A stretch of 64,000 bases of DNA from Nitrospira sp. ND1. Lineage in GTDB: Bacteria; Nitrospirota; Nitrospiria; Nitrospirales; Nitrospiraceae. Below the pieces are notes generated by a model, which saw only the letters and a program-made list of their open reading frames with translations, was not told the origin of the DNA and did no database searches. The stretch is taken from the NCBI RefSeq assembly GCF_900170025.1, contig NZ_FWEX01000006.1:286668-350667 (forward strand). The letters are read 5' to 3'. Shown here one piece after another: positions 1,840 to 54,651 of this stretch. Each line of letters begins with the position of its first letter. The first letter of the stretch is position 1. A program made the translations under genes and the position numbers.

Positions 1840-1963
1840 CCAGCCATCCGTTGAAAAAGACCGCTTGCTTCGTTCTCGCATTGCTCCGAGGCTCAGCCTC
1901 ATGAGCACCCTGCGGGAACACTCACTGCCTCCACCAAAGACATGTCGATGGGCCGTATGTCTG
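1840..1963. other. Non-coding spacer between repeat elements
   Basis: There is no convincing gene here. The segment around 1850-1905 (GAAAAAGACCGC, then TTCGTTCTCGC and GAGGCTCA) faintly resembles half of the repeat type found at 1964 and 7086, so it may be a decayed copy. This resemblance is weak and judged by eye. Confidence 0.3.
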
Positions 1964-2087
1964 CAGGATGTGCAAACAGGCCGTCCAGCAAGGCCGCAGC
2001 AATGCGAAGCGGGGAGGCGTACCCTTGCGGTACGTTGAGCCTCTGAGCGATGCGAGAACGCCGCTGGCGGGCTGTTTCCGCATCCTG
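1964..2087. mobile_element. Palindromic repeat family 1, short form (copy A)
   Basis: The ends CAGGATGTGCAAACAG (1964-1979) and its inverted partner (2072-2087) match at 14 of 16 positions. The interior carries the family core: TCCAGCAAGGCCGCAGC, then GAGCCTCTGAG, then AACGCCGCTGGCGG. Other copies are at 7086, 32118 and 53616. This short form lacks the extra internal hairpin of the 7086 and 32118 copies. It ends six bases before the stop codon of the minus-strand PIN-domain gene. Confidence 0.75.
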
Positions 2088-2093
2088 CCACCG

Positions 2094-6914: not shown

Positions 6915-7085
6915 ATGGCTGATGTGCAGATTGAAGACGGCATCATTAAAGTGGTTCAACTCGATATCCAGGATCCCAAGGCCGCCGCCGTGTTGGCGGA
7001 ATACCCCCAGGTCCGCTGGCCGGAAATCACTCGCCGGGCGTTGAAGATTGGATTGGGGTATCTGAAAGGCGGAGGAAAAGACTAG
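6915..7085 (+). CDS. Small cytosolic protein, 56 residues, unknown function
   Basis: The ATG at 6915 has an AGGAG site at a good distance. The protein has a beta-like start ('IIKVVQLDIQD') and one helix ('WPEITRRALKIGLGYL'); this might suggest a ribbon-helix-helix or small adaptor, but I do not recognise it. Its TAG stop (7083-7085) is exactly the CTAG bordering the repeat element that follows, so the last residues (GGGKD) may have been changed by that insertion. It is divergent from the lipoprotein cluster. Confidence 0.55.
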   Translation: MADVQIEDGIIKVVQLDIQDPKAAAVLAEYPQVRWPEITRRALKIGLGYLKGGGKD

Positions 7086-7274
7086 CAGGCTGCGGAAAAA
7101 GTCCGCCAGCAGCGTTCTCACAAGACACTGCCGCCTCACCGTCTCGGCGGCGTTCACAAACGTGACACGCGTTATTCCGCGCGTCGTGAACCTCAGAGGC
7201 TCACCGTACGGCCCGAGTACGATTCGCCTCTTCGCTCGCTGCGGCCTTGCTAAACAGCCTTTTTACGCAGCCTG
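7086..7274. mobile_element. Palindromic repeat family 1, long form (copy B)
   Basis: The ends CAGGCTGCGGAAAAAG (7086) and its inverted partner (ending 7274) match at nearly every position. Read in reverse, the copy matches the 32118 element along most of its length, including an internal hairpin ACGCGCG-GAATAA-CGCGCGT that the short copies lack. The left CTAG (7082-7085) is the stop codon of the plus-strand gene. A second right-end-like sequence (CTGCGCAGCCTG) stops at 7351, directly before CTA, the stop codon of the minus-strand gene. So the two convergent genes on either side both end at this element. Confidence 0.75.
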
Positions 7275-7351
7275 CGAGCGATTCTGACATCGACACGGCA
7301 CGTGAGCTGATCGCGAGCTATCGCGCACAAGCCGAGTTTCTGCGCAGCCTG

Positions 7352-8737
7352 CTAAGGCCCATGTTTCTCAGCTGGAGGAGCACTGCCTTGAACGGCGCGG
7401 ATCGCGCGTTCACTTTGTCCCCCCAGCTCCAGATATCGGCGGAAGGCGTCGACGGACTTTTGCGGTTCGTTCAAATGGTCGGCGTAGAGCTCGCCGAGCG
7501 AGAAATAGACATCCCCGTAGGCCGGGTTCACTACTAATGCCTGCTGCATGGCCTGCTCGGCTTCCTGGTACTGTCCCTTCTTTGTGAGGGCCAGTGCCAG
7601 GGAGTAGTGGGAATCGGGATTCTGCGGCGCATGTTGCACCGCCGCGCGGGCGGCGAGCAGCGACTCCTCCAGATTCGGCAGCACTTCCAAACGGATGTAA
7701 CTCTTTAATACGTAGGCATCGCCGAAGGACGGATCGTAGCCGATCGCGCGGTTGAGCCGTTCCAACGCCTCTTCGGCCGACTTTTGCTGCTGCAGCAATG
7801 CAAAGGCCTGTTCATACTGAGTGCGGGCCTCCCTCATCCGGTCCGCCTCACTCGTCGGTTCCTTTCCGGCCTGGAAGGCGCCTTTTCGTCCTTCAATCAG
7901 AATGACGTCCCCGTCGCCCTCCAACTGCACGAACTGCGGGTGCTGAGCCCCCTTCGTCGCGGCCTCCACGTCCTGCTTCACCTGCGCCGCGAGTTCACTG
8001 GCCATGACCCAGCCGTTCTTGTTGAGATCGGCAGCCCCGTTCAGCCCAGCGACCAATGCCGTTACAAAGGCGCTCTGGCCCGGAGCACGTCCGACCGCCT
8101 CCTCTTTCTCAGCCGCCGTGAGGACCTGGACGGCTCGTTTTTCCGTATCATCTTCGGGCGACAAACGGCCTTCGAGTGAAAGCGGCTGCGGCGCGGTCAC
8201 CTCCCACCCCCGGATGTTCGCGTCGAACAACATCAAGATGTGTTTGGAAGCGGACCGTCGGCTGAATTCTTTGAGTTGATCGAACGTGATGGCTTTAGCG
8301 GGATTGTTCAGCTGCGCATCCCAGGGAACCAGATAGCCCAGTTCTTTGGATTGAGAATCCTGAGTGCCCCCTGCATGCCCGGCAAAAAAGAACAGCACGC
8401 GATCCTGACGCCCTACTTTGCGGGGCAAATAGTCATTGAGAATCTGGAGCAGATGTTTGGAACTTGCCTCTTTATCCTGCAGCTCGATCACTTCATCGAA
8501 CCCGAGCCCCCGCAACGCCGCCGCCACCGCATGCGCACTCTCCAACGCGCCGGGCACTTTCGGTGCCACGAGATAGTTCTCGACACCGACCACGACCGCC
8601 CAGGACTTGTAATAGAGTCCTTCCGGCTTTCCAACCTGCGCGTGGGCAATGGAGAGAATTCCAACCGTTCCAGCAGCGCACATGGCCACCAGGCATACGA
8701 ACATCCGACGAAGATGGGGGAATGTAGACGAGCGCAT
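7352..8737 (-). CDS. Caspase-like (peptidase C14 fold) protein with TPR repeats, catalytic Cys missing
   Basis: This encodes 461 residues. An N-terminal signal (residues 1-34, ending 'AHAQ') indicates export. Residues 45-250 follow the caspase/metacaspase fold: 'SWAVVVGVENY', 'VLFFFAGHAGG' with the expected His121, and 'KHILMLFDANIRG', where Asn174 takes the place of the catalytic Cys ('DACxSG' in active members). Residues 300-450 are three or so TPR units ('GDAYVLKSYI', 'PDSHYSLALALTKKGQYQEAEQAM', 'GDVYFSLGELYADHL'). It is probably a non-proteolytic binding protein in the periplasm. The start at 8737 lacks a clear ribosome site; Met12 is an alternative. Confidence 0.75.
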   Translation of the reverse strand: MRSSTFPHLRRMFVCLVAMCAAGTVGILSIAHAQVGKPEGLYYKSWAVVVGVENYLVAPKVPGALESAHAVAAALRGLGFDEVIELQDKEASSKHLLQILNDYLPRKVGRQDRVLFFFAGHAGGTQDSQSKELGYLVPWDAQLNNPAKAITFDQLKEFSRRSASKHILMLFDANIRGWEVTAPQPLSLEGRLSPEDDTEKRAVQVLTAAEKEEAVGRAPGQSAFVTALVAGLNGAADLNKNGWVMASELAAQVKQDVEAATKGAQHPQFVQLEGDGDVILIEGRKGAFQAGKEPTSEADRMREARTQYEQAFALLQQQKSAEEALERLNRAIGYDPSFGDAYVLKSYIRLEVLPNLEESLLAARAAVQHAPQNPDSHYSLALALTKKGQYQEAEQAMQQALVVNPAYGDVYFSLGELYADHLNEPQKSVDAFRRYLELGGQSERAIRAVQGSAPPAEKHGP

Positions 8738-32080: not shown

Positions 32081-32117
32081 CCAAGCAGTCGACCCGTATA
32101 GTGGATCGCCGCCCTAG

Positions 32118-32434
32118 CAGGCAGCGGAAAAACTCGATTGTTGCGCAATGCGCTACGATCACTCATGTGCTGTGTCGGTATTACCAGAACCCGCAGGATG
32201 CGCAAAAAGGCTGTTCAGCAAGGCCGCAGCAAGCGAAGCGGCGAATCGTTCATTCGTACCCGCCCACCCCGAGCCTGTCAAGACAGGCTCTTGTCCCGTG
32301 GCCGTACGGTGAGCGGTGAGCCTCTGAGGTTCACGACGCGCGGAATAACGCGCGTCACGTTTGTGAACGCCGCCGAGCCGGTGAGGCGGCAGTGTCTTGC
32401 GAGAACGCCGCTGGCGGACTTTTTCCGCATTCTG
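32118..32434. mobile_element. Palindromic repeat family 1, long form (copy C)
   Basis: The outer ends CAGGCAGCGGAAAAA (32118) and the inverted TTTTTCCGCATTCTG (ending 32434) are both bordered by CTAG (32114-32117, 32435-32438), a candidate target duplication. A second left end, CAGGATGCGCAAAAAG, begins at 32194, so an inner unit of 241 bases sits in a larger one. Internal hairpins include GAGCCTGTC-AA-GACAGGCTC (32271-32290) and ACGCGCG-GAATAA-CGCGCGT. The right CTAG is the stop codon of bcp. Confidence 0.75.
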
Positions 32435-32902
32435 CTAGGCCTTCAGCGCCGCCAGCACTTCATCGACATGGCCGGGCACCTTCACCTTCCGGAAAAGGGC
32501 CTTGATCCGACCCGTGGCATCGATCACAAACGTGCTCCGCTCGATGCCCAGATACTTCCGTCCGTACATGCTCTTCTCTTTATAGACTCCGTAGGCCTTA
32601 CAGACCTCGGCCTCTTCGTCGCTCAACAACGCAAAGGGCAAGCCATACTTGGCGATAAACTTCTGGTGCGAGGCTTTCCCGTCCTTACTGACTCCAATCA
32701 CCACCGCCCCGGCCTTTTTGATCGGCGCAAGGGAATCCCGGAAATCGCAGGCTTCTTTCGTACAGCCCGAGGTATCGTCCTTGGGATAAAAATAGAGGAC
32801 CACCTGCTTGCCCTTGAGGCTCTTCAGCGTCACGGTACTGCCGTCCTGGTCCGGCAAGGAGAAATCCGGCGCCTTCGCTCCCACGTTCAATTCGTCAGCC
32901 AT
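32435..32902 (-). CDS. bcp: Thioredoxin-dependent peroxiredoxin (PrxQ/Bcp type)
   Basis: This encodes 155 residues. It reduces hydrogen peroxide and organic peroxides using thioredoxin. The active site 'YPKDDTSGCTKEACDFRD' contains peroxidatic Cys47 and resolving Cys52, five residues apart as in atypical 2-Cys PrxQ. The rest is a standard thioredoxin-like fold ('FVIDATGRIKALFRKVKV'). Its stop codon TAG is the edge of repeat copy C. Confidence 0.95.
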   Translation of the reverse strand: MADELNVGAKAPDFSLPDQDGSTVTLKSLKGKQVVLYFYPKDDTSGCTKEACDFRDSLAPIKKAGAVVIGVSKDGKASHQKFIAKYGLPFALLSDEEAEVCKAYGVYKEKSMYGRKYLGIERSTFVIDATGRIKALFRKVKVPGHVDEVLAALKA

Positions 32903-53592: not shown

Positions 53593-53615
53593 GCGTGAGA
53601 ACTCGCCTGCGCTAG

Positions 53616-53814
53616 AAGACTGCGGGAAAATCCACTCTTGCACCAGCCAGCACGATCAGGTCACGTAGCATGTTGAAATTGGAATTACCAGCAGGATGCA
53701 CAAAAAGGTCGTCCAGCAAGGCCGCAGCGAGCGAAGGGGCGAATCGTACTCTGGCAGTACGGTGAGCCTCTGAGCGACGCGAGCACGCCGCTGGCGGACT
53801 TTTTCCGCATCCTG
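53616..53814. mobile_element. Palindromic repeat family 1 (copy D)
   Basis: The right end TTTTTCCGCATCCTG (ending 53814) pairs with the left end CAGGATGCACAAAAAG at 53692. A larger unit begins at 53616, whose start (GCGGGAAAA) resembles that of copy C and, like it, leads through ATTACCAG to the inner end. CTAG flanks both outer edges (53612-53615, 53815-53818). The internal hairpin of the long form is absent. The right CTAG provides the stop codon of accD. Confidence 0.7.
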
Positions 53815-54651
53815 CTAGAAGTGGCCGACCAATGTACTGACCGCTTCCTTCAACTGTTTCCGTTCGACGATCATGTCGATCATGCCGTGATCCAGCAAGA
53901 ACTCGGCCCGTTGAAACTGATCCGGCAATTGCTGTTTGATGGTTTGCTCGATGACGCGCGGACCGGCAAACCCGATGAGCGCCTTCGGCTCGGCAATAAT
54001 GACGTCTCCCAGCATCGCAATGCTCGCGGTCACTCCGCCGAACGTCGGGTCCGCCAAGATGGAGATGAACGGCACCTTCGCCTCTCCCAACTTCGCCACC
54101 GCTGCGGACGTTTTAGCCATCTGCATGAGCGACAGGATGCCCTCCTGCATGCGGGCGCCGCCCGAAGCCGTCACGAGGATCAACGGCATGCGCCCTTCCA
54201 AGGCCCGATCGACGGCGCGACAGATCTTTTCACCGACGACCGACCCCATACTGCCGCCCATGAACCCGAAATCGAAGACGCACAACGCCACCTTGCGCCC
54301 ATTGATCGCCCCCTGGCCGATGACCATGGCGTCTTTACGGCCGGTCTTTTCCTGTTGCGCCTTGATCCGGTCTTTATACGTGCGGGTATCCTGAAACTGG
54401 AGCGGGTCTTGCGGCTCCAGCTCGGCGTCCCACTCTTTGAAGGTTCCGAGATCCACCAGCAGGTTGATACGTTCAATCACCGAAATGGGAAAGTGATAGT
54501 CGCACTTCGGACAGACCTTGTTGTTCCGGTCCACCTCTTTGCGATACACGATCTCCCGGCAGTGATTACACTTCAGCCACATCCCCTCCGCCACTTTGGA
54601 GCGTTTGGGAGGCTCTGCCTCCTCGGTTTTGCCTTTTTTAAACCATGCCAT
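53815..54651 (-). CDS. accD: Acetyl-CoA carboxylase carboxyltransferase subunit beta
   Basis: This encodes 278 residues. It works with AccA to make malonyl-CoA. The N-terminal zinc ribbon has Cys28, Cys31, Cys47 and Cys50. The carboxyltransferase core has '[17 protein letters not shown]', '[11 protein letters not shown]' and '[10 protein letters not shown]'. The stop codon is the CTAG edge of repeat copy D, so the final residues (VGHF) may reflect that insertion. Confidence 0.96.

Follow-up and report, generated by a model that had tools for sequence, protein, structure and literature searches.

RAYT-mobilised REP sequences have as their hallmarks a palindrome of 20–40 bp, a GTAG or CGTC head and a RAYT gene. 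The Nitrospira repeat family described here resembles them in its many palindromic intergenic copies, but differs in its target duplication, its symmetric inverted ends and its length of 124–320 bp, and by the REP criteria neither element size nor duplication fits. RUP and Correia-type elements share with the family a size of ~100–250 bp, terminal inverted repeats, a TA target, a mostly intergenic location and movement in trans, in the case of RUP by IS630-Spn1 (PMC2229807). They have, however, other ends and another transposase family, and no stop-codon preference is mentioned for them in the passages and searches consulted. QMITE2 of Coxiella is located mainly in the 3′ untranslated regions of genes, as is our family, whereas insertion inside the stop codon itself is not reported there (PMC10969869). 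With the IS5-family IS (NF033581) and the MITEs derived from them, the family has in common that its ends match those of an IS in a related genome, that the MITE lacks a transposase, and that the IS copies show a 4-bp NTAN/CTAG target duplication. In contrast to those MITEs, nearly half of the copies described here lie exactly in stop codons, and the covarying fold of the MITE core is not simply an IS without its middle. A search of the open-access literature retrieved nothing matching on stop-codon-targeting MITEs or on such Nitrospira repeats.

The locus lies in a window of 64,000 nucleotides from Nitrospira sp. ND1 (genome size 4.45 Mb; its close relatives are Nitrospira), where a 56-residue gene and a caspase/TPR gene converge with a repeat between them. 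Its features are the following:

6915–7085, plus strand: 56-residue gene (MADVQIEDG...LKGGGKD), with ATG at 6915 and its stop TAG at 7083–7085, on the left edge of the element
7082–7085, no strand: left target copy, CTAG, containing the stop of the 56-residue gene; the empty site of the relative G052 is CTAA
7086–7351, no strand: inserted MITE, 266 bp between the target copies, precisely missing from the relatives G052 and G030
7085–7275, plus strand: R core, long form with an internal insert of ~70 bp, an imperfect palindrome with arms at 7085–7101 and 7259–7275
7276–7351, plus strand: T tail, with the outer right inverted repeat at its end (7336–7351)
7352–7355, no strand: right target copy, CTAA, of which CTA is the minus-strand stop of the caspase gene
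7352–8737, minus strand: caspase (Peptidase_C14) and TPR gene (Pfam PF00656, 2e-12, plus TPR families)

The original prediction had placed the stop codons of both genes at the edges of this repeat, which is what we find. Positions 7082–7089 read CTAG CAGG, with the TAG of the small gene at the left edge, and 7348–7355 read CCTG CTAA, with the CTA of the caspase-like gene (7352–7354) at the right edge. The outer arms (7083–7106 and 7331–7354) are inverted repeats (83%), and a second, inner right end is present at 7259–7278. The T tail matches the tails of other copies in the same genome and in G092, while its outer end resembles an IS5-family IS end. No transposase gene is found in the 266-bp element, just short overlapping ORFs. 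Of the 147 genomes sampled from the family, whose assemblies vary in completeness, 139 contain relatives of the small gene and all contain a match to the caspase gene. The 56-residue protein matched no Pfam family, and its C-terminus is well conserved.

The further claim that the element had changed both C-termini does not survive the alignment of orthologues lacking the repeat, which had been named as its check: nine element-free relatives (G052, G030, G116, G095, G048, G080, G089, G058 and G061) end at the corresponding residues. In G052 (caspase 97% identical) the junction of the two genes reads GAC TAA GGC: TAA ends the small gene, CTA, on the opposite strand, ends the caspase gene, and the TA is common to both stops. 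The two proteins end like those of the window, in LKGGGKD and PAEKHGP. Small sequence differences are present in the protein tails of the other eight. The element-free flanks join as GACTAAGG in G052 and GATTAAGG in G030, and in all nine relatives the genes are convergent with overlapping stops (CTAA, TTAA or CTAG). In the caspase gene tree, several separate lineages, some of them early-branching, show this empty state with overlapping stops, which is therefore probably ancestral. The repeat has inserted into a shared stop site, leaving each gene a stop.

At the same locus, the repeat is present in the opposite orientation in G055, G072 and G113. In another clade (G083, G107, G104, G069, G038, G077 and G043) the same two genes are separated by a spacer of ~90 bp bounded by TAG and CTA (loci L016, L017, L020, L022–L024 and L029), which is weakly similar to the non-repeat half of the G072 element and may be an old, decayed insertion. 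These reversed repeats and spacers indicate more than one hit or alteration at the locus. On the caspase tree, genomes with and without the repeat are interspersed, a pattern that requires repeated insertion, excision or exchange; as empty genomes fall within groups of filled ones, the repeat may also have been lost precisely or exchanged.

The repeat belongs to a family with dozens of copies in the genome. Its end motif, GCAGGCTGCGGAAAAAG, has 9 matches in the window with at most 3 mismatches (0.25 expected), and genome-wide the ends match ~99 times and a reversed control pattern 4 times; a survey of 11 genomes yielded 125 copies. The core R occurs in a short form of 124–132 bp and in long forms of 191–243 bp, and many copies carry the tail T, which ends in an outer inverted repeat. 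The long cores (L072, L093 and others) contain two different inserts, one of ~70 bp after position 41 and one of ~45 bp after position 132, so that the family has nested modules. Other copies in the window are:

1850–2090, minus strand: family copy without stop fusion
32115–32437, minus strand: family copy with the stop of a peroxiredoxin gene as its right edge; the G030 and G055 orthologues end at the same codon without the element
53613–53817, minus strand: family copy whose right edge is the stop of accD; the G052 orthologue ends at the same codon without the element

When genes were called with a simple model of codon usage that had been checked on the window, 59 of the 125 copies (47%) are fused to a stop codon at their exact edge, and none lies within a gene. 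The proportion is 27/57 for copies of the own genome and 32/68 for those of other genomes, and the locus described here is the sole copy that is stop-fused at both ends. At these loci, 12% and 7% of the non-coding TA sites are stops, as are 29% and 13% of the non-coding CTAG sites (own and other genomes, respectively); the pooled fusion (59/125) was compared with the 22% of non-coding CTAG sites that are stops, giving p = 6e-10. The clear targets are CTAG in 11 of 19 cases, as opposed to 2.3% of TA sites, and the CTAG sites in the own-genome loci comprise 28 coding, 56 intergenic and 23 stop sites. The scarcity of CTAG in genes and its concentration at stops account for part of the stop preference; the excess over the CTAG expectation (47% versus 22%) is probably due to selection.

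To find empty sites, the joined flanks of 23 stop-fused copies were searched against four relatives, and an element-free orthologous site could be aligned for ten copies, this locus and nine further ones. At each of the ten, the gene stops at that very codon, TAA or TAG, in one relative or more. Examples are accD (window 53613; TTC TAA), the peroxiredoxin gene (window 32115; GCC TAG), the PmbA-like protease gene at L069 (AAC TAG GTT) and L088 (TCC TAG). Exceptions occur in single relatives, G072 having TGA at window 32115 and G052 being without a stop at the L082 codon. At the ten tested copies, the stops existed before the insertion.

A probable parent of the MITE family was identified by scanning relatives for pairs of ends, which revealed in G075 two 1,323-bp elements with the ends (TIR) TAGCAGGCTGCGGAAAAAC, each encoding a 363-residue transposase. 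The G075 transposase has the Pfam domains PF01609 and PF05598, and the one copy tested scores 285 bits against NCBIfam NF033581 (IS5 family), for which the cut-off is 140. The TIR of this IS is identical to the MITE end over 21 of 21 bp (T end of L080) and 18 of 18 bp (left end in the window). Homologous copies of this IS, in other genomes, likewise have ends of this kind and targets resembling CTAG. Identical 4-mers are present at both ends of 13 of the 19 IS copies, and four matching 4-mers are other than CTAG (TTAG, CTAT, ATAG and TTAG), which shows that the target duplication is of 4 bp. The target copies of the present locus differ (CTAG and CTAA, with an empty site of CTAA), which would be explained by a mutation of TAA to TAG in the left copy or by the duplication of TA alone. 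A plain 2-bp TA duplication was rejected for the family, as the IS copies favour 4 bp, although a duplication of TA alone would suit this locus just as well. In the genome that contains the window we found no transposase match at E ≤ 1e-60 and no end pairs 0.9–2.5 kb apart that would mark an autonomous IS; the MITEs there may therefore be old, or have been moved by a transposase since lost.

From the empty sites, the target motif, the duplication in the IS copies, the ends common to IS and MITE and the 47% stop fusion, we infer with good confidence that the segment 7086–7351 is a non-autonomous MITE whose movement in trans most likely depends on a transposase of the IS5 family, through CTAG targeting, stop-safe insertion and selection. 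In this mechanism, a Nitrospira IS5-family transposase (NF033581) would insert at NTAN, preferably CTAG, and duplicate its target. This motif is seldom found in genes and relatively often at stop codons (NNC TAG), and the duplicated C-TA-R would give each side a whole stop codon, so that an insertion there would leave the protein unchanged. Before the insertion, the convergent genes would have shared one TA, CTAA being read as TAA on the plus strand and as TAG on the minus strand. A single insertion would then have given each gene its own copy, with the TAA of the small gene becoming TAG as the sole change. Selection against insertions in genes and near promoters would probably leave about half of the surviving copies in stops; of 74 gene contexts, just 2 are divergent.

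A motif that is rare in genes, common at stops and copied on insertion offers a transposon a simple way to live in a gene-dense genome, and copies lie in the stops of core genes such as accD, the protein being unchanged. The analysis also yields a probable parent IS and a structured element family absent from Rfam. More tentatively, the family may use stop codons as its main safe landing site, with the target duplication re-creating the stop for genes on either strand and the structured core becoming the new 3′ end of host transcripts, a combined reading that we regard as possible rather than probable.

The fold of the core was analysed in an alignment of 55 core copies (A1; 124-bp core), in which 93.6% of the cells stay paired and 16 of the 25 pairs have changes on both sides. 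None of 500 shuffles reached any of the five measures used, and slid controls were far lower. Inverted-repeat evolution could account for the outer helix; the internal helices (columns 45–48/79–82 and 55–58/67–70) point to selection on the fold, as RNA or single-stranded DNA; both a 3′-end RNA structure and a transposition-related DNA structure are possible. Rfam gave no match in the window, nor in four copies at E ≤ 0.1. The core with its internal covarying helices is widespread in Nitrospira and could be modelled as a new structured family.

The suggestion that the repeat acts as a bidirectional terminator is unproven. If the element were kept as a bidirectional transcription terminator or 3′-end RNA structure for convergent genes, this would agree with the compensatory changes, those of the internal helices included, with the A-tract and T-tract carried by the core arms, and with the preference of the copies for convergent gene pairs (24/74 versus 6/58; Fisher p = 0.003). 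We nevertheless consider it unlikely: a consensus scan found no canonical intrinsic terminator (a short GC-rich hairpin running directly into a T run) inside 7083–7354, and ten orthologous pairs do without the element. In addition, tandem genes flank about two thirds of the copies, and several are in operon-like gaps with the next gene just 8–20 bp away, a spacing at which a strong terminator would have polar effects. It seems less likely still that the transposition machinery itself seeks stops beyond CTAG, for example via translation- or replication-coupled DNA. The fusion of 47% of the copies against 22% of non-coding CTAG sites could be read in this way, but selection against other sites can account for the MITE excess, and the autonomous IS copies alone, of which 5 of 19 are stop-fused, have no significant stop excess over CTAG (p = 0.09–0.69).

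That the element truncated or re-made both C-termini through new stops, as first proposed, we regard as extremely improbable despite the position of both stops on its edges. Besides the unchanged endings of the nine element-free relatives and the pre-existing stops in at least one relative at 10 of 10 testable copies, random truncation should often lead to reading on into the element, whereas almost all stops that overlap an element edge do so exactly at −3. A gene ending at a repeat need not, then, have been truncated by it. As for the mover, our preferred IS5-family transposase has to be weighed against an IS630/Tc1-mariner element, which would fit the TA-centred target and the preference of IS630 for TA in CTAG that is reported in a title (Tenzen and Ohtsubo 1991, as cited in PMC2170065). 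This is very unlikely, as the duplications are of 4 bp and not 2 bp, a full IS5-family IS with the same ends as the MITE exists, and the sole DDE_3 transposase found in the own genome was rejected as the mover, since it sits in an element with ends unlike those of the MITE. This DDE_3 (IS630-type) transposase is located at L080:150–1180 (C6, near 1217350–1218380) in two overlapping frames, and its element has CTAG at both ends, different terminal repeats and a position ~300 bp from a MITE copy.
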